A stretch of 64,000 bases of DNA. Origin: Candidatus Zhuqueibacterota bacterium (GTDB taxonomy: Bacteria > Zhuqueibacterota > Zhuqueibacteria > Thermofontimicrobiales > Thiofontviventaceae). The translations under genes and the position numbers were made by a program. The DNA lies in contig JAFGDW010000170.1 in assembly GCA_016931935.1 (NCBI GenBank), positions 41,931 to 105,930 of the forward strand. The letters are read 5' to 3'. The notes under the pieces are model-generated. The model was not told the DNA's origin. It searched no databases and saw nothing but the letters and a program-made list of their open reading frames with translations. This document shows, in pieces, positions 10,550 to 61,350 of the stretch (the stretch's first letter is position 1; each line of letters starts with the position of its first letter).

Positions 10550-13186
10550 ATGAGAAAGGCCTGGCGTAGCTGCATTTTAAATCTTTCAGTCCTGACGTTA
10601 GGGCTACTCCTTTTGAACGCATCGCGTTCATACGGACATGTTACGTTTACAGATGTAACCTCACAAGCAGGAGCAACCGCGCAGGAGGAAGTTGATGGAT
10701 ATGGTCATGGCGTTGCCTTCGGCGATTTTAACAATGATGGTTTTGAAGATTTGTATTTATTGGTCAATCTTTATGATAACTACCTTTTTATCAGCCGGGG
10801 CGATGGTACGTTTGAAGAGCGAGCTGCTGATGCCGGAGTCCGTGGTCCCGGCAATGGAGTCGGCGATCGCTGTGTGAATATTGTGGATTATGACAATGAT
10901 GGGGATTTGGATATATATCTCACAAATTCCGGCTCCAATAATTTGTATCGGAACAATGGCGGCGTTCATTTTTCTGACGTGAGCTGGGCCAGTGGCGCAA
11001 CAGGTTCCGGCTCTAATTTGGGAGAGCATTCATCGTGGTGTGATTATAATAATGATGGATATATTGATTTCTTCACATCAAACTGGGATGAACGGTGTGC
11101 GCTGTTTAAAAATAACGGAGATGGCACGTTCACGGATGTGACAACGTCAGCAGGAATATCCATCGATCAGGGTTACAGCCCAAGTAATGTATGGTTTGAT
11201 TACGATAATGATGGCAATCTTGACCTATTCGTCAGTCGGGCTGTAGAAAATCCGAATTGGTTATGGCGCAACAACGGCGATGGGACATTTACAGATGTTG
11301 CTTCACAGGCGGGTTTGGTAGTTACTATCGAAGGTCACGGCTCTGCAGCAGCCGATTATAACAATGACGGATTTATCGATCTGTATCAAACCAGTGATAA
11401 AGGCGCGAACGCACTATATCGCAATAATGGGAACGGAACATTTACTGAAGTTGGTGCAGTTGCCCGTGTTGATGACGAACGACGTACACTGGCTGGCGCA
11501 TGGGGCGATTTTGATAATGATGGCTGGCTTGATCTTTTCATCACAAACTATCGGGTGCCCAACTGTCTCTATTTTAACAATGGTGATGGGACGTTTTCAG
11601 TGGACGACAGCTTTTTTGAAGACTGGGAAGCAGGTTATAGTATTACACTGGGCGATTATAATAACGACGGATTTCTGGATATCTACCACTCCAATTCCGG
11701 TCAAAAAAGTCGATTGTTCAGGAATGATAGAAACAGCAACCACTGGTTGAAAATAAGGTTGCAGGGAGTGCAAAGTAACTCTTATGGCATCGGCGCCAGA
11801 ATCGAAGTGCTTGTCGGTTCAGCAAAACAAGATCAGGAAGTCACCGCCGGGAGTGGTTATACAGGACAGAATTCACTCATTATCAATTTCGGTCTGGCGG
11901 GAAGCACCGTGGCCGATAAAGTGATTGTTCACTGGCCCAGTGGCGCCAGGCAAGTACTCACTAATGTTGCAGCGGACCAGAAAATTACAATCGTGGAAGC
12001 GGATAATTCCATCTTCAATATTGCCGGGATGGTCTCTTATTATTCCAATGCGTTATCGGTAGACGATGTCCGACTCGATGTGGATAATGGAAATCAGACA
12101 TTTGATAACAGCATAAATGGTCAATACGCGTTCGATTTGGACGGCTGGGAAAATCATATTATTACGCCGGAAAAAATGACGAACCACAGTGCAGATGGCT
12201 GGGCCGTTGATATGTACGATGCTGCTTTAACGGCGCAACATGCCATTGGCTTGATTACGTTGAATGATATGCAACAGATCGCTGCGCAAATTGATAGTAC
12301 CGGTGAGATTACATTTTTTAACGCCGCGCAAATTGCCCGTTACGCCGTCGGTTTAAATCCAGTCGGCTCAACAATTATCGGATCATGGAAATTTAGTCCG
12401 GCGAGCAGAATCTATGTTGACTTGGAAGCTAATCAAGCCAACCAGAATTACCAGGCTATTTTAGCAGGTGATGTTAGCGGAAGTTGGTCGACTCAACCGC
12501 CATTGTCCAGGGAAAGTCAGGTGACAAATCGATTGTCGGAGTCATATGTTATACAGGATGACACACTCATCCTGCCGTTTTACAATATTCGCAACAGTGC
12601 CATGATTGCATTCGATTTGTCACTTGATTATCCCGATCAATATCTCGAATTTGTGGAAATAGTAAAATCCCCCCGCGGAAAGGATATTTCGTTTGTTTTC
12701 AATAAAACAGAAAATAATATTCGTGTTGGCGGATATAGCGTGAAACAGCACAACGATGATAGCGAATTGTTTGCTTTGAAATTTCATCTCCGTACAAATG
12801 TAGTCCCTGCCGATCGGATTGTGATGAATCATTTCAGAATAAATAATAGTATTTCGGAAACATCGATGATGTCGCTAACAGAAATTCAGGCCGGAAATAC
12901 GCAACCACGGAGTTTTTCACTAATGCAGAATTATCCGAATCCATTTAACAGTTCAACGGTCATTCCGTTGACTATCCCTGAAAGCGATGATGTCACAATC
13001 CAAATCTATAATCAACAGGGCGCGTTGGTACGGATACTTGTAAATGGACGCCTTAAACAGGGAAATCATTCAATCCATTGGGATGGCATGAATAATGAAG
13101 GTGTTACCACTGCCAGCGGTATCTATTTTGTTCAAGTCAATTATAGGCACGAAATTAAATTTTTGAAGCTGGTAACGATACGTTGA
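10550..13186 (+). CDS. Secreted FG-GAP/UnbV propeller protein with dockerin-like, cohesin-like and T9SS sorting domains
   Basis: ATG 10550 is chosen because GGAGGAAGG sits just upstream; the frame also opens at TTG 10514. The 878 residues read in order: signal peptide (1-27, ending in ASRSYG); seven or more FG-GAP/VCBS calcium-binding repeats of the form DYNNDGYIDFF or DFDNDGWLDLF (about 35-390); an ASPIC/UnbV domain (about 395-483, HWPSGARQVLTNV); a dockerin-like region (about 487-647) with VDMYDAALTAQHAIGL and FFNAAQIARYAVGL; a cohesin-like sandwich (about 664-780); and a T9SS type A sorting domain (QNYPNPFNSSTVIPL to the C-terminus). It is probably exported to the outer surface. The propeller suggests adhesion or ligand binding rather than catalysis. 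The dockerin loops have partly lost acidic residues. Confidence 0.85.
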   Translation: MRKAWRSCILNLSVLTLGLLLLNASRSYGHVTFTDVTSQAGATAQEEVDGYGHGVAFGDFNNDGFEDLYLLVNLYDNYLFISRGDGTFEERAADAGVRGPGNGVGDRCVNIVDYDNDGDLDIYLTNSGSNNLYRNNGGVHFSDVSWASGATGSGSNLGEHSSWCDYNNDGYIDFFTSNWDERCALFKNNGDGTFTDVTTSAGISIDQGYSPSNVWFDYDNDGNLDLFVSRAVENPNWLWRNNGDGTFTDVASQAGLVVTIEGHGSAAADYNNDGFIDLYQTSDKGANALYRNNGNGTFTEVGAVARVDDERRTLAGAWGDFDNDGWLDLFITNYRVPNCLYFNNGDGTFSVDDSFFEDWEAGYSITLGDYNNDGFLDIYHSNSGQKSRLFRNDRNSNHWLKIRLQGVQSNSYGIGARIEVLVGSAKQDQEVTAGSGYTGQNSLIINFGLAGSTVADKVIVHWPSGARQVLTNVAADQKITIVEADNSIFNIAGMVSYYSNALSVDDVRLDVDNGNQTFDNSINGQYAFDLDGWENHIITPEKMTNHSADGWAVDMYDAALTAQHAIGLITLNDMQQIAAQIDSTGEITFFNAAQIARYAVGLNPVGSTIIGSWKFSPASRIYVDLEANQANQNYQAILAGDVSGSWSTQPPLSRESQVTNRLSESYVIQDDTLILPFYNIRNSAMIAFDLSLDYPDQYLEFVEIVKSPRGKDISFVFNKTENNIRVGGYSVKQHNDDSELFALKFHLRTNVVPADRIVMNHFRINNSISETSMMSLTEIQAGNTQPRSFSLMQNYPNPFNSSTVIPLTIPESDDVTIQIYNQQGALVRILVNGRLKQGNHSIHWDGMNNEGVTTASGIYFVQVNYRHEIKFLKLVTIR

Positions 13187-13278
13187 CAGCAACTCCCATC
13201 AATAAAATAAGCTGGAATCACAACTAGCTGGCACATATAAAGAATCCGGAAAGGCAGATTAGGCAGGGGGAATAAGTA

Positions 13279-14793
13279 TTGATTAGTATGTTCATTCTTA
13301 TGATAGATTTTAAACGATTTTGTTATGCATCGGTTTGGACAATCTTGATTTCTTTACTATTTTCCATGACCGTATTTTCACAATCCCCAATATATGTTAA
13401 CATTAATGCAACTGGGGCAAATACAGGTGATGATTGGGAAAACGCTTTTACGACAATTCAGGCAGGAATTGATGCTGCAAATGCTAATGCTGTAGAAGTT
13501 TGGGTTGCCCGAGGCATCTATTATGAAAACATTCAGTTGTATGGTAATGTGGCGCTGTACGGTGGATTCTCCGGAAGCGAAAATGAACGTTCACAACGGA
13601 ACCTTTCCCGCAATCAATCAATTATTGATGGCAGCAATACATGGAGAGCTGTTGAAATTACGGGACATAACATTATTGATGGGTTTATCGTTCAACATGG
13701 ATTTTTTGCCTATGATGATAATGATGATGGTCGTGGGGGAGGAATTTTTCTTGAACAGGCGCACGGAACAATTATCCGCAAATGCCGTGTACAAGAAAAT
13801 CTTTCCGACCGTGGCGCTATTTATGTTAGCAGTACAGAAGATGTGTTGGTTGAGTATTGTGTTGTTGCAAATAACCATGGCGTTGTTTGTGCCGGCGGCA
13901 TCGAGCTAAATTATTCGACGGGTATTGTCCGGCAATGTACTATTGTTGACAATATAAGTTTCGGTATTGAAATTCCACACCGGGAAGATCAATTGCTGGC
14001 AGTTCTTTATAATAATATTGTTGTGGGCAATGTATTTAACAATCATCCCCGGTTTGCAGAGCCACTCCCGGATAACGATTTATACCAAATGGCCAAAATG
14101 AGCAACGATCATAATTTCATTGGTAAAATATGGGACTATAGTCCGATATTTGGGGATCCATTTAATCATGACAATCTCTATGGCGATTATGATAGCTTGA
14201 CGCCGGAATTTATGGATCACGATAATGGTGATTTTCATCTGCGCTATAACTCTCCATGTATTGGTACCGGCAGAGCAGGCACTACAATGGGCGCATTTCC
14301 GGAGATTGTGTGCGCAATTTCAGGTACTGTTATATATTGGAATAACGACACGCCAATGGAAAACGTGCTGTTAACGGTGCTGGGTAATGGAATTACGGAT
14401 TCTGTCCACACCGATAATTCGGGTTTTTATGATTTAATTGATTTACCCATTATAAACGAAAATACAATGTACACAATTACTCCAATGCAATTGGATACTG
14501 CGGATTTAAATGTACATATCACAATTGACGATGCGATTTCCGTTGCGCAATACGTTATGAACAATTCATCGTTTAATGAATATCAAACAGTTGCTGCCGA
14601 CTGCAACCGGGATGGCGTCGTTGATATGTACGATGCCGCGTTGATCGCGAGATCTGTCCATCAATCCACTAGCTTGTATGATGTGGGAAATTGTGTGTTT
14701 TACCCCTCTGAAAAAACGTATAACACCCTCATGGAAAATGCAACCGATGTGAATTTTCGAGTTGTGATTGTCGGAGATGTTGATGGTGAATGA
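13279..14793 (+). CDS. Secreted parallel beta-helix protein ending in a dockerin-like domain, no sorting domain
   Basis: 504 residues. The start is TTG 13279, 8 bp after AGGGGG; ATG 13288 is possible. A signal peptide (about 1-35, ending MTVFSQS) is followed by PIYVNINATGANTGDDWENA and TTIQAGIDAA, the usual opening of right-handed beta-helix proteins of the polymorphic-outer-membrane/DUF1565 style, with GGG and IEL-type turns to about residue 345. A carboxypeptidase-regulatory-like domain (about 348-405, ISGTVIYWNNDTPMENVLL) and a dockerin-like domain follow (DCNRDGVVDMYDAALIARSV, about 443-462). The protein stops right after GDVDGE, where its relatives continue into a cohesin-like and T9SS domain. 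It therefore looks C-terminally truncated, and its export route is unclear. Confidence 0.78.
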   Translation: MISMFILMIDFKRFCYASVWTILISLLFSMTVFSQSPIYVNINATGANTGDDWENAFTTIQAGIDAANANAVEVWVARGIYYENIQLYGNVALYGGFSGSENERSQRNLSRNQSIIDGSNTWRAVEITGHNIIDGFIVQHGFFAYDDNDDGRGGGIFLEQAHGTIIRKCRVQENLSDRGAIYVSSTEDVLVEYCVVANNHGVVCAGGIELNYSTGIVRQCTIVDNISFGIEIPHREDQLLAVLYNNIVVGNVFNNHPRFAEPLPDNDLYQMAKMSNDHNFIGKIWDYSPIFGDPFNHDNLYGDYDSLTPEFMDHDNGDFHLRYNSPCIGTGRAGTTMGAFPEIVCAISGTVIYWNNDTPMENVLLTVLGNGITDSVHTDNSGFYDLIDLPIINENTMYTITPMQLDTADLNVHITIDDAISVAQYVMNNSSFNEYQTVAADCNRDGVVDMYDAALIARSVHQSTSLYDVGNCVFYPSEKTYNTLMENATDVNFRVVIVGDVDGE

Positions 14794-14991
14794 GAAGGCG
14801 TGCGGCTGATGTGTTGTCGGTTTCATAGTTCACTTCTGTTTTAACAAAAATCGTAATGTAGCCGATAGATTAGTTATGGAATCATGAAGTAAAAACCGAG
14901 ATAAATGATTCCAGCTTTACCGTGAACAAATATTCAAATAGTTGAATTGAAAGCTATGCATGTATAAAAGCAAACGGATAAGGAGATATAT

Positions 14992-16884
14992 ATGATTGTT
15001 GGGATGTATCGGGCGGAAAAAGATGGTAATTTTACGGAGAATGAATTTAGCCGGCTCAAGGCTGGTGGAAAGCAGTACGATGGTGATGTCGTCACATCGT
15101 TTGAGCACCCTCGACTGGGACTCGCATTTCGTAATGACGGCCTGACTGTTCGAAATAATAAAGATGCTATTTACGTTAGTGATGATAAACAATTGGTAGT
15201 CGCTTGTGAAGGAAATATTTTTAATGAAAATGAATTGCGGGATTCGATTGAAAAGTCACTTTTGGGAAATCGCCGTGATAATGCCGCATTGATCGCTGCC
15301 TGCTACCGAAGCCTGGGGAAAGAGTGCTTTGTGAAGCTGAACGGCAATTTTGTGATTGTTATATGGGATCAGAAAACCGACGAATTGTACGTTGTTCGTG
15401 ATCATGTCGGCGTTGATCCGTTATTCTATGCCTGGGATGGCGAAACGTTGGTGTTCGGCACCTCGCTACAGGGTCTTATTCAAACAAAACTGGTTGAACC
15501 GAAATTAAATATGAAAGCATTGTACACCTATTTTCTGTTCAACTATATACCCGGTTTTGAAGCGCTGGTAGACAAGGTGAAAAAAGTTCGCCCCGGTCAT
15601 TTTCTGTATACATCGAACGGGTCGTTGGCAAATAAACGATACTGGTATCTTTCTTTTGCCCGGGATGAAACATTGGAGTCTAAAGATGAGACATCATATG
15701 CCAGGGAAATGTTTGAATTATTGAAAGATACCGTCGCTATCCGGATTGCATCGAATGAGTCGTCCCATGGCGCATTTCTCAGCGGCGGCATGGATTCCAG
15801 TTCGGTGGTGGGTTTGATGAGCGATATCGGTGCCAGTCCAATCCATACATTTTCCTTCCGTTGCAAGGGAAAAACGTTTGACGAGTCCAAATACGCCAAA
15901 ATTATGTCCGATAATTATGGTACCCAGCATTATTTGGTTGAGTATCCGGCATCAACAATTTCGGCGATCGAAGACATGGTTCGGTTTATGGATGAGCCGT
16001 TCTGTGATATTGGTATAGAAGTTGCATCTTACATTTTAGGTAGAGAAGCTAAGGGTAAAACAAACTACGTACTTACCGGTGATGGTGGTGATGAGCTATT
16101 TGCAGGCCATCCTGTCTATCTCGCCGATGATATGGCACATAAGTTTGACCGGGTACCTCGCCCGGTAAGGCAGCCATTAACTAAATTATTACAATTTCTT
16201 CCCGATACTGATAAAAAGAAAAGTTTGGCTGTCAAAGCAAAACGTTTTTCTTACAGTTATCAGTTCCCTGTGGATTTGTACAGTAACCGCTGGCGGATTT
16301 ACTATACACCGCAGGAGATGGCGGCGTTGATGACTGGAACAATGCACGACGAATTGCAGAGTCTGAATCCGTTAAGCGACATCGCCCACCTGTACGACGA
16401 AGCAGATGGGCAGGATTTCCTGAGCAAAACGCTCTATGGCGATTACATGACGGTGGTTGGATTCTACTTCATCCGCATGAAGCTGTTACGGGCGTTCGGG
16501 CTTGAAGGGCGGTTTCCGATGTTCGATCACCGACTGGTGGAATTTGCAGCTAAAATGCCGTCGTCCTTGAAAATTCGTGGGACAGAAGTAAAATACATTC
16601 TTCACAAAGCGATGGCCGGATTCTTGCCCGATGAAATCGTATTTCGCAAGGATAAACTCGGTCACAGTGTGCCCATGAAGAATTGGATGCGAGACGAACC
16701 GGTGGTTAAAGAGTTTATCGCGGATCATTTATCCGATGCATCGCTACAAAAAAAAGGGTATTTTAATACGAAGTTCGTGCAGCGCATGATAAAGCAGCAT
16801 CTGAGCAAATCGCATAACCATTCGCACCGTTTATGGGCGTTGGTAGTGTTGAAATTGTGGCTGGATGCACATCATGTGTCTTAG
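14992..16884 (+). CDS. Asparagine-synthase-like amidotransferase lacking the catalytic Cys
   Basis: 630 residues, full family length. The start is firm: AAGGAGATATAT precedes the only suitable ATG. The protein begins MIVGMYRAEKD, whereas active class II glutaminases begin MCG, so the N-terminal nucleophile is absent. The rest of the Ntn fold is kept, including VIWDQKTDELYVVRDHVGVD (about 125-145). The synthetase domain is intact, with the PP-loop GAFLSGGMDSSSVVGLM (about 258) and LTGDGGDELFAGH (about 360). It may use free ammonia, get ammonia from a partner, or have changed chemistry. It lies between the secreted-protein genes and the glycosyltransferase block. The 5'-truncated paralogue at window start cannot be compared at Cys2. 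Confidence 0.9.
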   Translation: MIVGMYRAEKDGNFTENEFSRLKAGGKQYDGDVVTSFEHPRLGLAFRNDGLTVRNNKDAIYVSDDKQLVVACEGNIFNENELRDSIEKSLLGNRRDNAALIAACYRSLGKECFVKLNGNFVIVIWDQKTDELYVVRDHVGVDPLFYAWDGETLVFGTSLQGLIQTKLVEPKLNMKALYTYFLFNYIPGFEALVDKVKKVRPGHFLYTSNGSLANKRYWYLSFARDETLESKDETSYAREMFELLKDTVAIRIASNESSHGAFLSGGMDSSSVVGLMSDIGASPIHTFSFRCKGKTFDESKYAKIMSDNYGTQHYLVEYPASTISAIEDMVRFMDEPFCDIGIEVASYILGREAKGKTNYVLTGDGGDELFAGHPVYLADDMAHKFDRVPRPVRQPLTKLLQFLPDTDKKKSLAVKAKRFSYSYQFPVDLYSNRWRIYYTPQEMAALMTGTMHDELQSLNPLSDIAHLYDEADGQDFLSKTLYGDYMTVVGFYFIRMKLLRAFGLEGRFPMFDHRLVEFAAKMPSSLKIRGTEVKYILHKAMAGFLPDEIVFRKDKLGHSVPMKNWMRDEPVVKEFIADHLSDASLQKKGYFNTKFVQRMIKQHLSKSHNHSHRLWALVVLKLWLDAHHVS

Positions 16885-17142
16885 TCATTGCTCAAAAATT
16901 AAATGTAAAATAATTAAATTACAGAAACGTGTCGGTACTTCAGTATGATGAGTAATCGGTGATCAGTAATCGGTGACCCGATCACCGTTCACTGATTACC
17001 GATTACCTTCAATCTATAGGCAAAGATTAATGGTATTATCATGAACATAAAAAGGTAATTAATTTTTGAGCAATCCCTTAGTGTCATAGAAAATTGAAAT
17101 AGATTCGTTTTCTAATGAACACGAATCATCCGGAAAATATAC
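16885..17142 (+). other. Intergenic gap of 258 bp with a long hairpin
   Basis: No gene is supported. Positions 16952-17006 form a long imperfect hairpin (listed separately). The sequence after it is AT-rich. Confidence 0.5.
16952..17006. repeat. Long hairpin built from ATCGGTGATCAGTAATCGGTGA
   Basis: The left arm of 25 bp starting GTAATCGGTGATCAG pairs with the right arm ending CTGATTACCGATTAC, with about three mismatches and a 5-base loop (CCCGA). Each arm itself contains two copies of an ATCGGTGA-like unit. There is no T-tract, so it is more likely a mobile or REP-like repeat than a terminator. Confidence 0.6.
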
Positions 17143-18649: not shown

Positions 18650-18663
18650 TGCAGGAATAGACA

Positions 18664-20882: not shown

Positions 20883-20915
20883 GATGATCGCAACAAGAAC
20901 AATTTTGAAATGATT

Positions 20916-31377: not shown

Positions 31378-31378
31378 T

Positions 31379-45090: not shown

Positions 45091-45817
45091 TTGCTAAACA
45101 AGCGTACCATGTAATGATGGCGCTCAGTTATGCGATAAAACTGATGATGGTATCGTGCAAGAGAATGTGCATAAAATGCACCGGTCCAATCATTGTTTTG
45201 GAAGTGGTAGACGATTGAATAGATTAAATTGATATTAATATTCATCTGTTATAATTAAGAAAAGTGAAGATGATAAAATTTAATCGGATAGTTTTCACGG
45301 CGTAAAGGAACCGCTCAAAGTGAAATTAGCGGGTAAAGTTGTTTATAGTACTCTTTACAATTTTTCCGAATAGTAATGTAAAATGTGAAAAGAAAATTGA
45401 TACGATTGGGATGCGATGTTTGAAAAACATAATTTGCTTGTTATAGGTCAAAATGAAACAATTAAAGCTCATGATTCGAACTAAAATGAAATCTTTAATA
45501 TTAAAAATTAGCAATGCATATATTCTATAAGTAACAGTAACTTCAGTAATCCTGCAAACATCCTGTCTCTGTTGCACCAATTACAAGCATCCATCTCTCC
45601 GTTATGTTTTGATTTAATACATGCTGCGCCTTGTAGGCACAAAAACTGTATTGGAATTAACCGGTAAAAGGCTTCATTGTATAATAAATTGTTTTGGTAC
45701 GGACTTTGCACGTGAATCAGATTGATATTAACAAATAAAAGCACATTTTTTCACGACAATATGATCGTAATGTATATTTAAACACAGTTGCGAGTTTTTA
45801 CAGGAGGATCAACAACT
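45091..45817 (+). other. Long intergenic region (727 bp) with a possible promoter
   Basis: No gene is supported on either strand; the small frames on the - strand have no family-like sequence or ribosome site. The region is AT-rich and has no repeat of the families seen elsewhere. A possible sigma70-like promoter lies at 45657-45685, and AGGAGG at about 45802 serves the giant protein. The length and lack of repeats suggest a regulatory leader. Confidence 0.5.
45657..45685 (+). promoter_or_regulatory. Possible promoter for the 2833-residue protein
   Basis: TTAACC, then a 17-bp spacer, then TATAAT, giving a leader of about 125 bases. It matches the sigma70 consensus at 4 and 6 of 6 positions. 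The phylum may use another consensus, so this is tentative. Confidence 0.35.
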
Positions 45818-51800: not shown

Positions 51801-54319
51801 CTGCCGGTCAGGTCCAGGGCAAAATTTTATCCACAAAAGCAGAATTGGTTACTGTTAGAGCATATGTAGTCGATTATCAACTTTGGTTGACAACAACCGC
51901 AAAGGTTCGGTTTACGGCATTAGCGGCAACTAATGTTGTTTATGTGAGCGGAACAAACCAATCTGGTAATTTTGAAACCGCTCTGCAGGATATGATTCGT
52001 GCTAAAGTTGTGGATCGTAATGGTAATGGTGTCTATAATCATGAAGTGTTCTTCAGTGTTGTGCAAGGTGGCGGGCTTATCTACCGAGCAAACAAAACAC
52101 TGCTTCGTGATGGTGATCCGGTATATACGGATTCCAGCGGAATTGCATCTGCCTACTTCATTTTAGGCAAGGATCAGCTCAATATTGCTGAAGCAACACA
52201 TCCATCACTTTCCGGGAAAGCGCAGTTTTATGCTGGCGCCGATGTTGGAACTGCTACAACTCTGTCCATTGCTTCCGGCAATAATCAGGTAGGCACAGCC
52301 GGCTATACATTGGTTAATCCATTGGTCGCCAAGGTAACAGATTCGGAGGCCGATCCGATCGGAAATTATCCGGTGACGTACGAAGTGACTTTTGGCGGCG
52401 GCTCGATTAATAATAAGTCTAAAGTTTCATTAACTACAAATTATTTCGGTGAAGCGCCTGTCTATTTCACACTTGGAAGCGAGGCTGGTTCAAATACGAT
52501 TGAGGCTTCGGCTGAAGGGCTTGCCGGTACGCCGCAATATTTCTTCGTGACCGGTAATTCCGGCGCGGCTGCTAAAATGGTGAAAAAGAGTGGCGATGGA
52601 CGCACCGGAACTGTTGGCGGTACTGTGTCCGGAATTTCAGTCCAGATAACTGACCTCAATGGTAATGTATACGAAGGCGGATATGATGTTACGTTCAGTG
52701 TATTGGAAGGTGACGCGGAAATTGTTGGCGATCCGGAAGTGTCAACCGGTCCGGATGGTATTGCAACGACTGCCATTCGTTTAGGTACAACAATCGGGCA
52801 AGTGGTTGTACAGGCATATGCCCCCGGCTTAATGGTAAACAATCCGGTGAAGTTTGTCATTAACGCCCGTGCTGCCGCCGCAGTAAGTATGGCGATCGCC
52901 AGTGGAAATAATCAGGATGGTACGGTTGGGCGTGAATTGCCGTATCCGTTTGAAGTGCTTGTTGTTGATCAATATGACAATCCGGTCTCCGGTGTTGCCA
53001 TAACATTCGTGCGTACCGGCGGTAACGGAACCATTCTTACGCCACAACCGGTGACCACTGATGAAAACGGCATTGCAGCCACCCGGTTACAATTAGCAAA
53101 TAATACGGGAAGTTATGAGGTCACGGCAATCCGTAACGGTTTGCCCGGCTCACCGTTGGTGTTTACTGCCACCGGAGTCACAAATAATTTCCCACTCTTT
53201 AATCATATTGCCGAGGTAACCAGTCCGGAAGGTCAAATTATTTCATTCCAGGTAAGTGCAACCGATGCAGATAACGATCAGATTCAATATGAAGCGCGAA
53301 ATTTACCGTCCGGGGCGAGTTTTGATCAGAACAATCGGTTTAACTGGACGCCAAATTTGCGGCAAGCGGGAGAGTATAAAGTCCGTTTCATTGCGCGTGA
53401 TACCAAAAACGGTATTGATGATGAAACCGCGTTGATCACGGTGACGAATTCCAATCAAAAACCGGTCCTGGTAAGTAAATATCCCAATACAAGCGATGTG
53501 ATACTTGGTCACAAAGATGTCGGCGAACGCTATGATTTCCGCGTGGATGTAACAGATGCCGATATTGATGATGAAATTATATACGAATGGCATTTTGATG
53601 ACTTAGTAGTATCCACACAATCAAGTTACACCTTGCTTGTGAATGATCCGATGGTCAATGTTGGAACCCACTTTGTAACGGTTGAAATTACTGATGGCTA
53701 CGATACAATTTCCGGAGGATCATGGGAACTTGCTGTTGTCACACCGGTCGAGCTTGTTACCTTTGCCTACGAAGTACTTCCACGCCAGGGTGTCGTACTC
53801 TCGTGGCAAACCGGTCATGAATTTAACAATAGCGGATTTAATGTCCTGCGCAGCAACTCGATTAGTGGACCGTACGAGCAAATTAATGATGATTTAATTC
53901 CATCAAATACTGATGGCACGTACAAATTTCTCGATTCGCATGTCAAATCCGGTCAAATGTATTTCTATAAAGTGGCTGATGTGTCGCTCTCAGGCACAAC
54001 CACAGAGCATGATATTATCAAGGTACTTGTAAGCAAACCAACTGAATATGAATTGTCCCAGAATTATCCGAATCCGTTTAATCCGACTACCAAAATTAAT
54101 TTCCAGGTACCGGAGCAACAATGGGTAACGTTAAAAATCTACAACATAATGGGACAGGAAATAGCGACGTTGGTGGATGAACAACGTGAAGCCGGTTACC
54201 ACACAGCAATTTGGAACGGTCTCGACAAGAATGGAAACCGGGCAACCTCAGGCGTTTACTACTATCGAATTATCGCCGGCTCGTTCGTTCATACCAAAAA
54301 AATGGTACTAATGAAATAA
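45818..54319 (+). CDS. Giant secreted SGNH hydrolase / adhesin with 13 Ig-like repeats, nested carbohydrate-binding modules and T9SS tail
   Basis: 2833 residues from ATG 45818 after CAGGAGGATC. In order: signal peptide (1-31, ending SHSYG); SGNH/GDSL hydrolase (about 33-235) with MPLGDSITRGV, LHLGTNDI and DKVHPND; LamG-like domain (about 246-426); FN3 (429-538); second LamG-like domain (543-727); about thirteen Big_1/invasin-like Ig repeats (728-2457); a cadherin/He_PIG-like domain; a PKD-like domain; an FN3-like domain (WQTGHEFNNSGFNVLRS); and a T9SS type A tail (QNYPNPFNPTTKINF, KMVLMK end). A CBM6-like module (792-944) and a CBM4_9-like module (about 1526-1690) are inserted inside Ig repeats 1 and 6. 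It is probably a cell-surface stalk presenting an esterase that deacylates glycans, perhaps the host's own or prey/plant polymer. Confidence 0.87.
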   Translation: MARSKRFFSSTVEGLLLILLAVLLTASHSYGQITIMPLGDSITRGVGSTNENGYRKPLYNLLNGETGTYGFTFDFVGSLSDGDFADTDHEGHNGYQSNQLNSEIQTYLANAGHPDIVILHLGTNDINNARDLDATVADMESSIEQIGKTTTFLLCSLVPRYDNTALDDSTTVLNNKLKIMYYRKLNQGYDLYYVGINEVFKTKTNWNSSSYFDADKVHPNDGGYNLMAGVIFNVLMNAINETPKIVTDNFNRTDLGSTWAVDNGTFDINTNELRDASGVDDWHMAVFLGIKDAFQTEIRWSTSANQAGITQGGLLMGLTGPTTSANGYFIWVHPSNKIMLYNIVNGAPSNGIDEMNSLVSLPAPGDTFRVVMRQESSSHTFDCYINGELAGTLYDNAKLYSNDVYSGVMLLGAQSNKIDYFNLPRQDDVIAPNAVSDLDIAKTGATSVLLRFTASGDDGNTGTASGYDLRYSTSTITALNFSTATQVANEPTPKTAGQIDSILVTGLSPATTYYFALKVFDESPNFSLLSNNAPTTTLESNILTDNFNRTSLGTDWLADATLSIANGELHNTSSTGGWQDMAIFKPRANPIEVSFRYGTSVTNSGMESVGLLLMLDSPSLTASGYLAWVRPDNGSINLFTIIDGAPSDAVGSASLPSQYNPQPGSVFKIALSPGSANRFIYYIDDVEVGEIVDNNPGDLGTASMLYSGVLFDGNSNNNIDDFSVLNIGGQPTNLVIVQGNNQSAPVNETLPDSLIVRVTDNNSIAIENVLVDFKVKTGGGHVNLQSPDNNIRMEAEYATLSGSFVKASDATASGGSMVSTSGGDPLGGKASFTVYVQTAGNYVIWGRVKAKEGGYSYYSYFVQVDGLPANVAPGNDDGVWDFFPTTDAWSWDRVSNRLGGSEGSPGTDPVIYNLTAGNHTIAITQRYPSAILLDKILLAPQSSGYTPSGKEEVPQYITDANGIARATWTMGTVVGSNNSLEVTVPGYSVPAKTFNATVLPAPPTHMDKVAGGDGQSGVGGHELPTPFAVVLSDNYGNKVPGYEVTFTVTEGNGTLTGGVTTKKVVSDATGKASILLTLATDGASNKVTASFPNLTSLVFSATSTSGLAARLQKTTSGAISDTVNTMAETKLTARVLDSGGNPVVNHDVLFSLTQGTGSLLATNLPGETPAQTITTRSNANGYVGVYIKLGQQAGTYLVEVSSVKRGNISLTDSPFEYSIQAVADIATNMKYESGNNQTGAAGMPLSQPFVVKVVDQYNNGVSNYPVNYQVTQGSGSLTTSGPWYTDSNGLARATLILGEEANLTNKVLATADKNLPSPVEFVAIAGQVTSIERISSANPSGSANWPLDDSLKVRVLDNYGNPVGGYPVIWECYGDNKGTVNGETLITTYTTTNGISKVEYICGPEPGKISYAQAITDGLTGSPVTFTVSVADLEALQAITTGISSGTVGSPLAEPFKVKVVDQFGHGVKNYKVTFAVKEGDGKFNNSDSINVLTNDNNEAVATLTLGPIPGTENNVVEVSAKRKGKQLLTNGKMDDWLGINLTDWGQWVATNSAISRNLTSARSGSCVKITGTTDASYGFIYRASTIVVKASTKYKLSFWAKGTAGIKMFARVRATGDVFLQPDGSWAQTLANCIESSSLTDEFRLYTFEFTTRSDAKAFDGGNFRFYGQGNGSVYVDDISLLELTDEEVHLTNSPITFKASAVIGAADSLAAISGNLQNVVVGNQLPKPIVVKVTDKCGNGIAAYDVTFAVKAGGGFVDNHLINAIKPTDANGLAQVNWTVGSVKGDLNNILEVRANKTGVGQLRNSPFSFYASAKENDAFKIEKVSGDNPANKPVREKLTAPFIVKVSDQAGNGVSDHPVTFTVIEGSGTFNAADGDSMVTVTTGENGNASVYYYPGPKAGLRNVIQARSWNGSPELVGSPIQFTVTPVTGAVSPTASTIQAESPIPADGSTKSTITVTLTDSYGNAIADKSVTLQVDGSARVSDQPPAKSNSAGQVQGKILSTKAELVTVRAYVVDYQLWLTTTAKVRFTALAATNVVYVSGTNQSGNFETALQDMIRAKVVDRNGNGVYNHEVFFSVVQGGGLIYRANKTLLRDGDPVYTDSSGIASAYFILGKDQLNIAEATHPSLSGKAQFYAGADVGTATTLSIASGNNQVGTAGYTLVNPLVAKVTDSEADPIGNYPVTYEVTFGGGSINNKSKVSLTTNYFGEAPVYFTLGSEAGSNTIEASAEGLAGTPQYFFVTGNSGAAAKMVKKSGDGRTGTVGGTVSGISVQITDLNGNVYEGGYDVTFSVLEGDAEIVGDPEVSTGPDGIATTAIRLGTTIGQVVVQAYAPGLMVNNPVKFVINARAAAAVSMAIASGNNQDGTVGRELPYPFEVLVVDQYDNPVSGVAITFVRTGGNGTILTPQPVTTDENGIAATRLQLANNTGSYEVTAIRNGLPGSPLVFTATGVTNNFPLFNHIAEVTSPEGQIISFQVSATDADNDQIQYEARNLPSGASFDQNNRFNWTPNLRQAGEYKVRFIARDTKNGIDDETALITVTNSNQKPVLVSKYPNTSDVILGHKDVGERYDFRVDVTDADIDDEIIYEWHFDDLVVSTQSSYTLLVNDPMVNVGTHFVTVEITDGYDTISGGSWELAVVTPVELVTFAYEVLPRQGVVLSWQTGHEFNNSGFNVLRSNSISGPYEQINDDLIPSNTDGTYKFLDSHVKSGQMYFYKVADVSLSGTTTEHDIIKVLVSKPTEYELSQNYPNPFNPTTKINFQVPEQQWVTLKIYNIMGQEIATLVDEQREAGYHTAIWNGLDKNGNRATSGVYYYRIIAGSFVHTKKMVLMK

Positions 54320-54341
54320 CATGTTTGATTTAAAGTATTTC

Positions 54342-54377
54342 AAAAGCCCGTTTTCGAATAGAGAATGGGCTTTTTTC
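54342..54377 (+). terminator. Intrinsic terminator after the giant gene
   Basis: AAAAGCCCGTTTTC, a 5-base loop, then GAGAATGGGCTTTTTT. The stem has about two mismatches and ends in a T-tract. It starts 22 bp after the stop and is the clearest terminator in the window. Confidence 0.75.
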
Positions 54378-54868: not shown

Positions 54869-54896
54869 TTAGCAATTGTAATATTTCAATTATAAA
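54869..54896 (+). promoter_or_regulatory. Possible promoter for the FG-GAP/apiosidase gene
   Basis: TTAGCA, a 16-bp spacer, then TATAAA, about 98 bases upstream of ATG 54995. The fit to the sigma70 consensus is partial (4/6 and 5/6), and the region is AT-rich, so chance matches are likely. Confidence 0.3.
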
Positions 54897-54994
54897 TTTA
54901 TGCAAAAAAAACGTATTGCTTGTATTCTCTATAACTTAACGGATAAATATTTCTTGGTATATAAAGCCATACGCATATTGAAATAAGGATGAAT

Positions 54995-57900
54995 ATGATA
55001 TCTGGTGTTAAACGGATTAGTTTCGTTTTATTCTGCTTATCAATTTTGTACTGTGGATGGTTTGGAACGGATGCACATGCAAGCATTAATTCCGAAAAAA
55101 TCGCGCTTAAAACAATAGCTTCCGGCAAAGATTCACTTAGTTTTTTAGAGATTACAACACAGGCCGGAATTGATGATCCACTTGGCGGACATTCGGTCGT
55201 GTTTACGGATGTCAATGGCGATAGTCTGCCCGATGTTTATTTCACAATGATTTACGAAGCGCCGACTTCCGATCGGTTTTATGTAAATCGCGAGGGTAAT
55301 AAATTTCAGGAGAGCGCTGCTTTATTCGGGATTGATGACTATGACGGCGGTTCCCACGGCGCTTGTTTTGCTGATCTGGACAATGATGGCGATTACGATC
55401 TTATTAATGGTACAACCGATGGCGTATCCGGTGAACCGGGCATAAATAATATTTATGAGAATATTGGAAATAATCAGTTCCGGGATGTTACGGCAAGCTG
55501 TGGAATATTAACGCGCGATTGGGAAACACGCGGCGTTACGGTATTTGATTTTGATAATGATGGCGATCTGGATATCTTTTTCGTCACGAATTATCAAGGC
55601 AGCAACGATCCCGTCGGTGAGCGGAATGAAATATATCGGAATGAAGGCAACTTGACTTTTACCCCGCTTAATTTTGGTGAATTGTATACCTGCCCTGCCG
55701 GACAGGGTGTCACCGCGGTCGACTATGACGGCGATGGTGATATTGACCTGTTTACCGGCAACCGCTACAGTGCAGTCAATATTCTCAGAAATGATGGCGG
55801 TGACAAATTTGAGCTTGTTGATCCATCTTCAATCGGTATTAATCACAAAGCCGGTGATGGTATTACATTCGCTGATGTAGATAATGATGGTATTTTGGAT
55901 GTCATGCTCACCAGCGATAATGAAGGCCATCTATATCGGGGACTCGGCGACGGAATGTTCAGCTATCTACAGTCGTTTTCCAATACCGATGGTTACATGG
56001 CTGCCTTCCCGGATTTGGATAATGATGGCGATGTGGATGTTGTCTTCTCTGGTGATGATGTTTGCTACCTGAACGACGGCGCCGGCAGATTTACTCCAGG
56101 TCCGGCGATTATCTTTAAATATTTGTACGATCCACGTGCAATCGGCCTGGCCGATATTGATAATGATGGCGATATAGATTTCGCCTATGGTTGCAAACGC
56201 TCGAACAATATTTTGATTCGGAATAATTTTAACGGTGGTAACTGGATCAAAATCGCGCTAATTTCTGTGGAAGGGCAGGCTGGCGCGTTTGGTGCGAAGG
56301 TGCGTGTGTATCCGGCGGGACAGGCAGTTAGTGGCCAATTAATTGGTATGCAGCAGGCACAGGGCGCTTACGGTTATTTGGGACAGAACGATCCGGTATT
56401 GCATTTCGGCTTAGGAACACATGACTCTATTGATGTTGTCGTTGATTTTTTAGATGGAACCCGGATTATTCAGGCAGGTATTTCTGCGAACCAACGCATT
56501 TCAATCGATGCGCGAACCGGGTTGAATCGTCGGTATTATTTGGACGTAAGAAACGGAACAGGCAGCGGCTATTATCGTGCCGGCGATATTATTCCGGTAC
56601 AAGCGCGGCCAGCGCCTGCAGGTTTTTTATTTGCTGGCTGGACCGGGGATAATACGTCGGTTGCGGTACCGGTAAAAATGTCGACATCAGTTTTAATGCC
56701 GAATGAACGAGTTAAAATTGTCGCACATTACAAACGAAAACCTGTGGAGATCGACCAGTTCGGCGTTTGTGAAATAAAATTGAATTCAACAAAAAACTAT
56801 CCCAATCCATACAAAGATACTCAGGTGGAAGCCATTTTTCACGGACCGTCCGACATTTACAACGTGAACGGCTTCTGGGATGGCGACAGCACCTTTAAAA
56901 TACGATTTTCCCCGAACGAATCAGGTGAATGGTCGGTTGAAACCAGAAGCGCTGATACTAACTTGCACTTAAATGCGACATTCGACTGTGTTCAATCGAG
57001 CCTGAGCGGCGGTATTGCGACTATGAACGGATATCCGTATCACTTTCAAACACAAGATGGGATTCCGTTTTGGTGGTTTGGGGAAACCTGCTGGAACGCA
57101 ATGAGCACGAATGCAGCCGAAAACCTGACCCATGAAACATATGAAGAATATGTCCGTGTTCGGGCAGAACAGGATTTTAACTATCTTCAGGTACTGTTGC
57201 TTCATGATGGCAATTGGGGCGGTGTTCCATTTATTGGAGACACCGGTGAGCTTGTGAATCCGGTGTTTTGGCAGGAAGTTGACCGGAGAATCGCCTTTGC
57301 AAATGCAAACGGTCTTCAGTGTGGACTTGTGCTGGCATGGAAGCACGGTGGTGATGACAATACTGATGATTGGGAAGCATTTGAAGATACCAATTCCCGA
57401 AAAGCGTTTTGTCAATACATTGCCTCCCGATACGGCGCCTACAACGTTGTCTGGATTCTTGCCGGCGAATACAATGAACTGGGGAGCGATAAAAATGTAA
57501 TTACGATTGATGAATGGTCGCAACTGGCTGAAACTCTTCAGCAATTCGATCCGCATCATCGATTGCTTGGTATGCATGCTGCCAACACGGCAGAGGAACT
57601 CGCTGATTTGCCGTGGATTTCTTTCGGAGATTACATGCAAACATACAACCAGTTGCATGCCGCGGTGTTGAATTCACGCGATCATCAAAAGCCTGTAATA
57701 AACGCTGAGTATGCCTATTATTTGCGCGATTCCAACGGGGATGGTATTGTGGACAAGCCGAATAGCGCCACCCGTGATGAATTCCGTTATGCTTCCTGGG
57801 ATATTGCCATGGCCGGTGGCTATTTTGTATCCGGTTTTGGAACAACGTATCTTGGTGGTTTGAATGATCCCAATCCGTTTGATGTTCACGATCCGCGCAA

Positions 57901-59455
57901 TGATGACGCGGAACTGGATTTGCAATATTTAAGGACATTTTTCACAGCGCTGGATTGGTGGAAATATCAACCGGCAGATCAGTTGGTATCGGGAACCGGA
58001 ATACACTACTGTCTGAGCGATCAGGATTCACATTACGTCGTTTATGTCCGGGGGACAATCGATTCCGTTCAATTGAATGCAGATAGGTCGACCAGTGGCA
58101 CATTTGTGTTAAAACGCTTCAATCCTCGTGATGGGAAATGGACGCTTGAACACGATGTCACAAACGATTCGTTGATTATAATTACACCTCCGGATAGTAA
58201 CGATTGGGTATATTATCTCGCACGTCCGGCGGAAAGTATTTCTGGCTCAATCATCTATTATGCCGGTTATCAGCTAATTCCGAACGTTTCTGTTGTGTGG
58301 ACGACAGATTCAACTACAATTGATACAATTACAGCAGATCAGTTTGGTAAATATTCGTTTGGACACCTAAGTCCCTATCAGGATTATCATGTTCAATGCA
58401 GCAAGCAGGCCGAAAGCGATTTGGATAATGTAACGATCACAGCCTATGATGCAGCGCTGACATATCAGGCAGCGATGGGATCACGTAATTTAACCGCATT
58501 TCAGCGCATTGCTGCAGATGTTGATTTGGATAGTACGATAACTGCATCCGATGCTGCACAAATTGCTGCCTATTCAGTAGGAATCTGGCCGATTATCGGT
58601 TCACATGTTGGGGAGTGGACCTTTTCACCAAATGAATATATTTACCAGCCGTTGGATAGTACACGCGTTGCTCAAAATTTTGTGGGAATAATACGGGGCA
58701 ATGTGCATGGAGGCTGGGGCAAATCGACGAATACGAATACGCTTGTCAAAGATAAAACAGAGGTTACCGAATTTGTGAAAATTGATCATTCGGATTTACA
58801 TTCTGACTTGATTATTCACATCCCGGCAGGACAGAACACTATTTCCGTTGATCTGGAACTTGAATATCAACCATCTTTAATGCATGTTGCCTCGGTTAAT
58901 CGTACATCGTTAACGATGGATTTTGAAATCAAAAACAATCAAACAGAAAATTTAGTACGAGTCGGGTTGTATGGCGTACAGCCGATTGACCAGGCTGGTG
59001 ATGTGTTAATTGTACGGCTGTCACATGATCCGGAGATGACTGAGCAGCAAGTAACTGAGGCGATTACAATAAATAAGCTATTTATAAATTGCCAACGAAT
59101 TATTGACAACAGTATTTTCCTGAGTGTAAATTCGGATGCACAGCAACCGGTCACGTTCAGGTTAGAGCAAAATTATCCCAATCCGTTTGGCGCTGTCAAT
59201 GCCGCTGGTACAGGATTGGTTAAAACATATATTGGATATCAAATTCCGCGACCCGGGCATGTAACATTAAAGATATTTAATTATATTGGCCAGGAAATTT
59301 GCATACTGGTTAATGAGAACAAAAGCCCGGGAAAACAGCAAGTGGTGTGGGATGGACGGAATTCGCAGGGTGTGTCTGTCGCTGCGGGAATTTATTTTTA
59401 TCAGTTATCGTGGGGAAGTGAGAACAGGGTGAAAAAACTAGTTTTGTTGCGTTAG
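54995..59455 (+). CDS. Secreted FG-GAP/UnbV propeller fused to an apiosidase-like glycoside hydrolase, dockerin-like, cohesin-like and T9SS domains
   Basis: 1486 residues from ATG 54995 (AAGGAT upstream; ATG 54989 is too close to it). Order: signal peptide (to about 31); FG-GAP/VCBS repeats such as DLDNDGDYDLI (45-410); ASPIC/UnbV domain (415-505); an InlB-like repeat (508-580, GFLFAGWTGD); DUF5060 (585-660); a DUF4038/GH140-like barrel (672-1078) with candidate catalytic Glu in WILAGEYNEL and KPVINAEYAYY; a regulatory-like domain; a dockerin-like region with VTITAYDAALTYQAAMG and ADVDLDSTITASDAAQIAAY (about 1140-1185); a cohesin-like sandwich (1265-1385); and a T9SS tail (QNYPNPFGAV). It is probably surface-displayed and hydrolyses a pectin-like or other branched glycan. 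The activity is inferred from the family. Confidence 0.85.
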   Translation: MISGVKRISFVLFCLSILYCGWFGTDAHASINSEKIALKTIASGKDSLSFLEITTQAGIDDPLGGHSVVFTDVNGDSLPDVYFTMIYEAPTSDRFYVNREGNKFQESAALFGIDDYDGGSHGACFADLDNDGDYDLINGTTDGVSGEPGINNIYENIGNNQFRDVTASCGILTRDWETRGVTVFDFDNDGDLDIFFVTNYQGSNDPVGERNEIYRNEGNLTFTPLNFGELYTCPAGQGVTAVDYDGDGDIDLFTGNRYSAVNILRNDGGDKFELVDPSSIGINHKAGDGITFADVDNDGILDVMLTSDNEGHLYRGLGDGMFSYLQSFSNTDGYMAAFPDLDNDGDVDVVFSGDDVCYLNDGAGRFTPGPAIIFKYLYDPRAIGLADIDNDGDIDFAYGCKRSNNILIRNNFNGGNWIKIALISVEGQAGAFGAKVRVYPAGQAVSGQLIGMQQAQGAYGYLGQNDPVLHFGLGTHDSIDVVVDFLDGTRIIQAGISANQRISIDARTGLNRRYYLDVRNGTGSGYYRAGDIIPVQARPAPAGFLFAGWTGDNTSVAVPVKMSTSVLMPNERVKIVAHYKRKPVEIDQFGVCEIKLNSTKNYPNPYKDTQVEAIFHGPSDIYNVNGFWDGDSTFKIRFSPNESGEWSVETRSADTNLHLNATFDCVQSSLSGGIATMNGYPYHFQTQDGIPFWWFGETCWNAMSTNAAENLTHETYEEYVRVRAEQDFNYLQVLLLHDGNWGGVPFIGDTGELVNPVFWQEVDRRIAFANANGLQCGLVLAWKHGGDDNTDDWEAFEDTNSRKAFCQYIASRYGAYNVVWILAGEYNELGSDKNVITIDEWSQLAETLQQFDPHHRLLGMHAANTAEELADLPWISFGDYMQTYNQLHAAVLNSRDHQKPVINAEYAYYLRDSNGDGIVDKPNSATRDEFRYASWDIAMAGGYFVSGFGTTYLGGLNDPNPFDVHDPRNDDAELDLQYLRTFFTALDWWKYQPADQLVSGTGIHYCLSDQDSHYVVYVRGTIDSVQLNADRSTSGTFVLKRFNPRDGKWTLEHDVTNDSLIIITPPDSNDWVYYLARPAESISGSIIYYAGYQLIPNVSVVWTTDSTTIDTITADQFGKYSFGHLSPYQDYHVQCSKQAESDLDNVTITAYDAALTYQAAMGSRNLTAFQRIAADVDLDSTITASDAAQIAAYSVGIWPIIGSHVGEWTFSPNEYIYQPLDSTRVAQNFVGIIRGNVHGGWGKSTNTNTLVKDKTEVTEFVKIDHSDLHSDLIIHIPAGQNTISVDLELEYQPSLMHVASVNRTSLTMDFEIKNNQTENLVRVGLYGVQPIDQAGDVLIVRLSHDPEMTEQQVTEAITINKLFINCQRIIDNSIFLSVNSDAQQPVTFRLEQNYPNPFGAVNAAGTGLVKTYIGYQIPRPGHVTLKIFNYIGQEICILVNENKSPGKQQVVWDGRNSQGVSVAAGIYFYQLSWGSENRVKKLVLLR

Positions 59456-59472
59456 TTGGAGGTCATCACCAA

Positions 59473-61350
59473 ATGAGAAGGAAAACAATAGTCCTGGTTT
59501 CCATATTGATGGGAAGCTGGTTGTCGGCAGGGCTTGTGGAGGCCCAACAATTTCGAATAATGCCGTTGGGAAATTCCATTACGGAGGGTGTGCAACAGCG
59601 TGGAGTAATCGATTGGGGTGGTTATCGTGATGACCTGGCGGAAATGTTAATCGGTGAGGGAATCGATTTTGATATGGTCGGAAGTCAGGACGACGGAACA
59701 GATTTTTATCCCCGTCACGAAGGACATGCGGGTTGGAATGCGTACCAAATTGCTGATAATATCGCCGGCTGGATAAATACGTACACACCGAATATCTTCT
59801 TCTTTCATATCGGTACCAATGATATTAGTGCACAATTCGGAATTTCATATATTGTTGATGAAATTGAAAATACGCTCGATGAAATTCATGATTACAATCC
59901 CAATGCGGTGGTATTCCTTGCGAGTGTCATACCGCGCGATGATGAATTGGATGGCTACAATGATTCACTTAACGATGCGATTCGGCAATTAATCCCAACA
60001 AAACAAATTCAGGGATATCGATTGTATTATTCTGCCCAACACGAGCAGATCGTCCAGAATTCCAATTGGAAAAATGATTATATGTCCGATTATCTGCATC
60101 CGAATGATACCGGTTATCATTTGATGGCAGAACAATTTTTTAATGATTTCATCGCCAATGTAAATACGAGTAATAGCTTTATGATCGCTGGTGACGTTCG
60201 ATATTATCTGAATGATGAAGCTGTGGCAAATGTGTTGCTTCAAGTGGGAGAATATCCCGGCGAATCTATTCTGTCGTCCGCGGATGGCTCATATGAATTT
60301 AATGATTTGGCAGCAGGGAGCAATTATACAATCACCGCATTGAAGGATCCGTTGTCGATCGAAGAGAATTTGACACATTTTTACATTACTACATATAGCG
60401 CGGCACTCACATTACGTTATAGTTTAGGACTGGAAACTTTATCCGGTGAGCAGCAAGTTGCCGCCGATGTGGATAAAGATGGAAACATCTTTTCGTACGA
60501 TGCCGCGTTAATCGCTCGCTACTCTGTCGGATTACCGCGATTTGCCGATTCTCATGTAGGTGAATGGTCGTTCACTCCCGACTCGCGTTCGTATAGTCCG
60601 CCAAACGTCGATAAACCAAATGACGATTACACGGCGATTCTGCTTGGGGATGTCAGCGGCAGTTACATCGCCCAGGGCAGTTTGCTTGCCAAGCAGACTG
60701 AAAAGGACAATTGGTCAATTACGGAGTCGTATCAGACCGGTGACGAATTTGCTCTGTACATTCAATCATCTCATGCAGCGCTACTGGCTTATGATATTCT
60801 GTGTGATTTCCCACATGATAAACTTCGCCTGAAACGAATTACCCTGTTGGCTGCTGTTGCTGATTTTCAACTTGTACAAAATGCGTCGGATAAGCAGGTT
60901 AAAGTTGGGCTGTATAGCGCCCAGCCGAGTGATGCTTCCGGAGATATTATAGAAATTGTTTTTGATGTGACAGCGCCGTTTACAGAGATAAATATTGGGT
61001 CATTGGAACAGGCCGGCGAGCATTCAACTCTCCTCGCCTATCAGTTATCAATTCCCGAAAACACCATGCCGGCTCAATTTGTAGTACATCAGAACTATCC
61101 CAACCCATTCAATCCGGAAACAACTATTTCCTACGAATTGCCGGAAATGGGTACAGTGGATATAAATATTTTTAATATTGTTGGGCAACATGTGAAAACA
61201 GTATTTAGCGGTACACAAATGGCAGGCGTGAATAACATTCAATGGCGCGGCGACAACGATTTTGGCCAGCAGGTCAGTTCTGGCGTGTACTTATGTCAAA
61301 TACGTTATCAGGGAATTGTCAAAAATATTCGAATGTTAAAAATTGAATAG
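59473..61350 (+). CDS. Secreted SGNH hydrolase with dockerin-like, cohesin-like and T9SS domains
   Basis: 625 residues; GGAGG precedes the ATG, 17 bp after the previous stop. The signal peptide ends about residue 25 (LVEAQQ). The SGNH domain (26-232) has block I MPLGNSITEGV, where the usual GDS is GNS but the Ser is kept, block III HIGTNDI and block V DYLHPND. A regulatory-like beta domain (236-300) and a dockerin-like region follow, with TTYSAALTLRYSLGL and the near-perfect DVDKDGNIFSYDAALIARYS (about 335-355), then SHVGEWSFTP and GDVSGSY. A cohesin-like domain (411-526) and T9SS tail (QNYPNPFNPETTISYEL) end it. It is a probable carbohydrate esterase on the cell surface, partnering the glycoside hydrolase upstream. 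Confidence 0.87.
   Translation: MRRKTIVLVSILMGSWLSAGLVEAQQFRIMPLGNSITEGVQQRGVIDWGGYRDDLAEMLIGEGIDFDMVGSQDDGTDFYPRHEGHAGWNAYQIADNIAGWINTYTPNIFFFHIGTNDISAQFGISYIVDEIENTLDEIHDYNPNAVVFLASVIPRDDELDGYNDSLNDAIRQLIPTKQIQGYRLYYSAQHEQIVQNSNWKNDYMSDYLHPNDTGYHLMAEQFFNDFIANVNTSNSFMIAGDVRYYLNDEAVANVLLQVGEYPGESILSSADGSYEFNDLAAGSNYTITALKDPLSIEENLTHFYITTYSAALTLRYSLGLETLSGEQQVAADVDKDGNIFSYDAALIARYSVGLPRFADSHVGEWSFTPDSRSYSPPNVDKPNDDYTAILLGDVSGSYIAQGSLLAKQTEKDNWSITESYQTGDEFALYIQSSHAALLAYDILCDFPHDKLRLKRITLLAAVADFQLVQNASDKQVKVGLYSAQPSDASGDIIEIVFDVTAPFTEINIGSLEQAGEHSTLLAYQLSIPENTMPAQFVVHQNYPNPFNPETTISYELPEMGTVDINIFNIVGQHVKTVFSGTQMAGVNNIQWRGDNDFGQQVSSGVYLCQIRYQGIVKNIRMLKIE

Follow-up and report, generated by a model that had tools for sequence, protein, structure and literature searches.

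A dockerin-like domain nested in a beta-sandwich and paired with a cohesin on the same chain: a candidate intramolecular clasp in cargo of the type IX secretion system

Four predicted secreted proteins, encoded on the + strand of a 64,000-nucleotide stretch (the window) of contig JAFGDW010000170.1 from a Candidatus Zhuqueibacterota bacterium, share a C-terminal unit in which a dockerin-like domain is nested inside another domain, here called X. X is a single CarboxypepD_reg/transthyretin-like beta-sandwich, and the dockerin is inserted between its two halves; in three of the four proteins a cohesin and a type IX secretion system (T9SS) sorting tail follow. The parts belong to recognizable families, and the nested arrangement recurs in several phyla with near-constant order and spacing. 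With moderate confidence, resting on structure models and on the constancy of the pairing, we read the unit as a self-docked intramolecular clasp, which would keep the cargo at a distance from the cell surface.

RESULTS

Four proteins with unrelated cargo share one C-terminal unit

The four open reading frames (ORFs) span window positions 10514-13186, 13279-14793, 54989-59455, and 59473-61350, and the proteins are named here by their start positions. A protein family scan identified an FG-GAP/ASPIC propeller in the N-terminal part of the 10514 protein, a beta-helix in the 13279 protein, an FG-GAP propeller with DUF5060 and an apiosidase-like domain in the 54989 protein, and an SGNH esterase in the 59473 protein. 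A first-pass annotation, made from the sequence alone, had described unrelated N-terminal domains joined to similar ends, and the ORFs, the family scan, and an alignment bear this out. Relative to the 59473 copy, the other window copies are 33 to 41% identical in the X-dockerin (X-Doc) part and 17 to 20% identical in the cohesin part. A profile built from the four window copies (A1) matched five places in the 7.9-Mb genome at an E value of ≤0.001, the four in the window and one at C228; since only these five match, the shared end represents a family and not a coincidence of motifs. An open frame of 1322 residues encodes the C228 copy along with LTD and CotH domains, and the cohesin of that copy exceeds the Pfam cutoff. 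Cargo in 13 scanned X-Doc proteins consisted mostly of propellers, SGNH esterases, and CotH or lectin-like folds, with one apiosidase-like domain; for some of the 13, no cargo family was recognized.

The dockerin is inserted between the two halves of X

The first-pass annotation had distinguished a regulatory-like domain from a separate SHVGEWxFxP signature farther along the chain; the domain call stands, and the signature proves to be its other half. A profile of X with the dockerin excised matched undivided X domains (best E value, 4e-17; 1e-14 in this genome) and placed the SHVGEW signature in the second half of X, which ruled it out as an element of its own. The solved carboxypeptidase D domain 5aq0_B aligned over 82 of 82 residues to both halves (model positions 5 to 161). 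For Pfam comparisons we scanned 91 segments singly, comprising the stretches around the X-Doc matches of a 60-genome search, three window copies, and C228. CarboxypepD_reg was recognized in 67 of the 91 at an E value of ≤0.01, the window copies scoring below the curated cutoff; X has both the sequence-family match and the sandwich fold of about 80 residues that characterize CarboxypepD_reg/transthyretin-like domains.

The N-terminal half of X lies at 12014..12175 in the 10514 protein (alignment and hidden Markov model [HMM]), 14314..14490 in the 13279 protein (CarboxypepD_reg, 2.3e-4, below cutoff; HMM), 58232..58402 in the 54989 protein (CarboxypepD_reg, 8.5e-5, below cutoff; AlphaFold2 strands), and 60172..60345 in the 59473 protein (AlphaFold2 strands and the 5aq0_B alignment). 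The C-terminal half occupies 12380..12487, terminating in GDVSGSW (HMM); 14686..14790, at the end of the ORF, with no cohesin or T9SS tail behind it; 58613..58717 (AlphaFold2 strands); and 60559..60666, running from GEWSFTP to GDVSGSY (HMM and AlphaFold2), respectively.

The dockerin assignment made in the first pass holds at the level of the family. Dockerin_1 matched 66 of the 91 segments at an E value of ≤0.01, as expected of the type I sequence family, and a profile of 33 members matched the solved dockerin 9qf9 at 2.1e-7, with 4uyq_B at 1.1e-5 among the matches to solved cohesins and dockerins. No dockerin appeared among the structural matches listed, because matches to X and the cohesin fill that list; the insert is identified from sequence profiles and predicted helices. 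Of the 91 segments, 78 have a near-canonical second calcium loop (strictly canonical in 52), and 90 have D at position 12 of it. The first loop varies and in many segments is shorter (D12 kept in 83 of 91), so that repeat 1 is degenerate and the domain lacks two canonical calcium loop-helix repeats; we call it dockerin-like because one of the two defining loops is not canonical.

In the window, the insert lies at 14491..14685 in the 13279 protein, where Dockerin_1 scored 23.1 bits in the protein scan (8.5e-5; cutoff, 22.9 bits) and 27.9 bits in the genome scan. The inserts of the 54989 protein (58403..58612; AlphaFold2 helices; second loop, DVDLDSTITASD) and the 59473 protein (60346..60558) fell below the cutoff in the protein scan, at 17.5 and 20.3 bits, and above it in the genome scan, at 23.9 and 24.0 bits. 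Both have good second loops, and that of the 59473 protein, DVDKDGNIFSYD, is canonical, in agreement with its earlier description as close to a classical type I repeat. The 10514 insert (12176..12379) was delimited by the HMM, with no Dockerin_1 match listed in either the protein or the genome scan; its second loop, QIDSTGEITFFN, is not a canonical calcium loop, having Q in position 1 and N in position 12.

A cohesin and a T9SS sorting tail follow

The cohesin call was likewise upheld at the family level. Pfam Cohesin matched 42 of the 91 segments at an E value of ≤0.01, the profile of 33 members matched the solved cohesin 2xdh at 3.1e-10, and the top structural matches were 2jh2, 2vo8, and 2w1n, all from Clostridium perfringens glycoside hydrolases, so that the domain belongs to the cohesins in both fold and sequence family. 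The first-pass annotation had stated that an unrelated immunoglobulin-like fold with no dockerin-binding face would refute its reading; an unrelated fold of this kind is ruled out by the structural matches and the profile matches to solved cohesins. Pfam Cohesin itself recognized none of the three window copies in the protein or genome scan. These copies lie at 12521..12913 (10514 protein; family cohesin HMM, 1.4e-27, this copy being itself in the training set; no Pfam match), 58769..59131 (54989 protein), and 60694..61074 (59473 protein).

We also built a profile from the free cohesins of this genome, which matched 63 of 97 tails at an E value of <0.001 (calculated for 100 sequences) and none of the 97 shuffled tails. 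It matched 23 of 372 N-terminal pieces as well, probably because some of these proteins have a second, upstream cohesin. The window tails gave a mixed result: one of the three passed (3.5e-4), and the others failed (0.12 and 0.28). Given the N-terminal matches and the failed window tails, recognition of linked cohesins by this profile alone was dropped.

Sorting tails were found at 12929..13183 in the 10514 protein and 61093..61347 in the 59473 protein (TIGR04183, 34.5 and 34.1 bits; cutoff, 23). In the 54989 protein the tail at 59171..59452 scored just below both cutoffs (TIGR04183, 21.6 bits against 23; FlgD_ig, 26.1 against 27). The earlier description of three proteins with a cohesin and a T9SS tail is therefore retained, with no Pfam match to any of the three cohesins and a near-threshold tail in the 54989 protein. 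Among the 91 segments, Por_Secre_tail matched 82 and FlgD_ig matched 90 at an E value of ≤0.01. The genome encodes T9SS machinery (PorU-like and SprA_N matches), and the three tailed proteins accordingly qualify as T9SS cargo; the 13279 protein does not. A PorU-like T9SS sortase gene (G000:C259:21857-25108) overlaps a Dockerin_1 match (C259:21929-22099; 5.9e-4), which may be due to chance.

The unit recurs across phyla with near-constant order and spacing

A search for the tandem in other genomes, proposed in the first pass, showed that X-Doc followed by a cohesin recurs across several phyla. X-Doc was found in 35 of 60 genomes at an E value of ≤0.001 and, at 1e-12, in 41 of 82 genomes from the phylum, this genome being included in both counts; the highest count for one genome in the 60-genome search was 18 matches, which include pieces of a single copy. 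Named loci with X and a dockerin came from candidate division KSB1, Calditrichota, Marinimicrobia, a bin labelled Deferribacteres, Gemmatimonadota, and Acidobacteriota; the Acidobacteriota loci have the unit without the NYPNPF-type tail, and an undivided X often comes after it. A homology search with the 59473 segment recovered at least 7 proteins, itself included, among the best 7997 word-sharing candidates, too few for an alignment.

From near-complete matches, with identical copies removed, we obtained 166 X-Doc copies, for 153 of which the gene end lay within the fetched stretch. A cohesin lies within 80 residues behind X-Doc in 148 of the 153, a count that is partly circular because the family cohesin profile was built from the tails of alignment A3; checks independent of that profile are the Pfam matches (42/91) and the free-cohesin matches (63/97) given above. 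An NYPNPF-like T9SS motif is present in 106 of the 153, and 44 have one or more further cohesins upstream. The five copies without a cohesin are the 13279 protein, L134 (ending 2 residues past X-Doc), L192 (83 residues past), and two copies, L178 and L174, with tails (228 and 220 residues, respectively) that the profile did not recognize. One chain, L192:28-3252, has two X-Doc matches.

Dockerin and cohesin are predicted to dock within one chain

The intrachain structure prediction suggested in the first pass was run with AlphaFold2 on the X(Doc)-cohesin part of the 54989 and 59473 proteins. The predicted template modeling score (pTM) was 0.89, from which X-dockerin and cohesin are predicted to form one rigid body. 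The docking face was examined through covariation: 14 of the 20 top dockerin-cohesin pairs fall on two cohesin strands, against a mean of 3.7 when shuffled. Covariation, as distinct from model coordinates, thus predicts that the dockerin contacts the cohesin sheet that binds dockerins in cellulosomes.

The first-pass annotation had proposed self-assembly into a cellulosome-like surface complex, with an intramolecular cap as the alternative. The AlphaFold2 packing and the same-chain cohesins of 148 of 153 copies disfavor the former and favor the latter. We therefore consider a self-docked clasp the probable state of the unit. In such a scheme, the T9SS would export the chain and the tail would be removed or anchored; the dockerin would dock onto the cohesin of its own chain, in cis rather than between chains, to close the clasp; and calcium, mainly at the second dockerin loop, would steady it. 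The closed clasp would stand as a compact, stiff stalk or spacer between cargo and T9SS anchor, with a mechanical and protective role. Nesting fixes the dockerin at both ends, an arrangement that would be better suited to a rigid clasp than a free linker is, and the near-constant one-to-one pairing of dockerin and cohesin favors a clasp over a mix-and-match complex.

Several observations weigh against this reading. The strength of the covariation alone does not exceed a tail control and is not decisive, and the same docking-face signal fits head-to-tail assembly, a domain swap in which each dockerin binds the cohesin of a neighboring chain, linking the cargo into surface chains or a mixed complex that needs no scaffoldin. 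Such assembly also accords with the 31 adjacent same-strand pairs of genes bearing the unit (32 rows less one single-ORF row), the upstream cohesins of 44 copies, and the dockerin-only 13279 protein in the same locus, and Amy4 of Ruminococcus bromii is drawn as capable of self-aggregation through its own cohesin and dockerin (PMC5814915). We nevertheless regard head-to-tail assembly as unlikely, given the same-chain partner on a short linker in almost every copy, the packing of the unit as one body in the AlphaFold2 models, and the general argument that a tethered partner normally outcompetes a free one. A switchable version, in which the latch closed in cis is a stiff stalk and, once opened, links neighboring T9SS cargo head to tail into filaments with 13279-type proteins as end caps, seems to us distinctly unlikely; if true, it would mean that cellulosome glue had been turned into a polymerizing surface fastener common to several phyla.

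Alternatively, the two domains might be relic folds whose packing gives a simple structural stalk, docking neither reversibly nor in a calcium-dependent way. The degenerate first loop, and in the 10514 protein the noncanonical second loop, would fit such decay; the near-canonical second loop of most segments, its almost invariant D12, and the concentration of couplings on the docking face do not, and we hold this explanation to be highly improbable.

The 13279 protein ends right after the SHVGEW strand half of X, so that its dockerin has neither cohesin nor T9SS tail. Inspection by eye of the three forward frames over 14700-15000 showed no cohesin or T9SS remnant, no profile having been run there. 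A Gemmatimonadetes protein, L134:4252-6459, ends in the same way, two residues past X-Doc, which makes a genuine ending likelier than decay; a frameshift or lost tail is disfavored on both grounds. Having no cohesin or tail of its own, the protein would depend for its retention at the surface on a free cohesin in some other chain.

Free cohesins and the cellulosome alternative

The genome holds 12 Pfam cohesins above the cutoff, of which one, at C228, belongs to an X-Doc unit. Four are in a 1145-residue open frame on a 5.4-kb contig (L007:332-3766; G000:C143), a scaffoldin-like protein with an NYPNPF-type end. A second, different cohesin-dockerin chain of this genome (L010:3356-6187; G000:C278) has no X; it combines a T9SS tail with a cohesin and with a Dockerin_1 match that shows two loop-like repeats. 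Elsewhere, ORFs right after X-Doc genes (L130:7193-8578, L132:7192-8118, and L135:4611-6727) have a free cohesin near the N terminus; of four ORFs with a free cohesin behind X-Doc genes, three run off the end of the stretch.

A cellulosome-like complex, in which the X-nested dockerins serve free cohesins such as those of the four-cohesin T9SS protein while the linked cohesins receive other dockerins, would account for these free cohesins and for the unpaired dockerin of the 13279 protein. The docking-face strand of the four-cohesin array, however, looks unlike that of the linked cohesins: alignment column 240 is R or K in 100 of 153 linked cohesins compared with 26 of 102 others, and N, E, E, and N in the array. 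A missing cohesin is seen in only one of the genome's five X-Doc copies, and the cargo of the 13 scanned proteins includes a single apiosidase-like domain among propellers, SGNH esterases, CotH, and lectin-like folds. We judge a cellulosome-like role very unlikely. In a cellulosome, scaffoldin cohesins lie apart from dockerin-bearing enzymes; here nearly all the dockerins have a cohesin in cis, although the genome has free cohesins too, and we do not class the unit as a cellulosome.

Comparison with known cohesin-dockerin systems

In the X-dockerin dyads of cellulosomes, the X module and the dockerin follow one another along the chain. The cohesin-like modules of C. perfringens glycoside hydrolases, which head the structural matches listed for the cohesin described here, have their partner dockerins on other enzymes. 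Dyads in solved complexes (4iu3, 4u3s, and 5g5d) likewise pair a beta-sandwich X module with a dockerin; unlike in those dyads, the domains here are not consecutive, the dockerin sitting inside the sandwich. As in cellulosomal type I and II pairs, the cohesin is identifiable by structure, the dockerin by sequence profile, and the predicted contact involves the same sheet and helices (PMC5934362). Unlike in those pairs, the partners share one chain at near-fixed spacing, the first calcium loop is degenerate, and the cargo scanned is mostly not plant cell wall enzymes. The noncellulosomal cohesin 2xdh is from an archaeon, Archaeoglobus fulgidus, unlike the bacterial host here.

Proteins with both modules are known. 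R. bromii Amy4 has a dockerin and a cohesin in one enzyme, for which self-aggregation was proposed; it is one amylosome protein, described in the passages cited here without a nested dockerin or a cassette shared across unrelated cargo (PMC5814915). Ruminococcus flavefaciens has polypeptides with a single cohesin and a single dockerin as possible adaptors to other proteins, (PMC4081043), whereas the predicted partner here is on the same chain. Acetivibrio cellulolyticus proteins with cohesins and dockerins in one chain are scaffoldins of a clostridial cellulosome, unlike the unit here (PMC3413522). Outside the clostridia, as here, anaerobic methanotrophic (ANME) archaea have proteins with one dockerin and several cohesins (PMC9012536), and Cloacimonadota have a scaffoldin-like protein with a C-terminal attachment domain (CTD) (PMC8542988); both are read there as scaffoldin-type systems acting between chains. 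The parts and the two-module proteins are thus already known. For a nested dockerin, or cis docking as a shared cassette, literature searches limited to open-licence papers turned up no title or abstract, which is not proof that no report exists.

If the clasp is real, the dockerin-cohesin pair, familiar as an intermolecular glue, would double as an internal fastening, and genome counts of dockerin and cohesin domains can overstate cellulosome-like assembly. The unit would then offer a ready-made stiff stalk for T9SS surface display and a small system for testing cis docking, swapping, and calcium control.

Genomic neighborhood

The two X-Doc gene pairs, at 10.5 to 14.8 kb and 55 to 61 kb, are 40 kb apart, with polysaccharide genes between and beyond them. 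Upstream of the second pair, a 2843-residue protein (45788-54319) in which X-Doc was not found combines an SGNH esterase with 13 Big_1 stretches and a CBM_4_9 match, and its C terminus is a T9SS end of the NYPNPF type. Among 30 further window ORFs scanned, many encode glycosyltransferases; together with Wzx-like (Polysacc_synt), Wzy_C, and PMT_2 membrane proteins, these mark the window (1-64000) as a polysaccharide biosynthesis locus.
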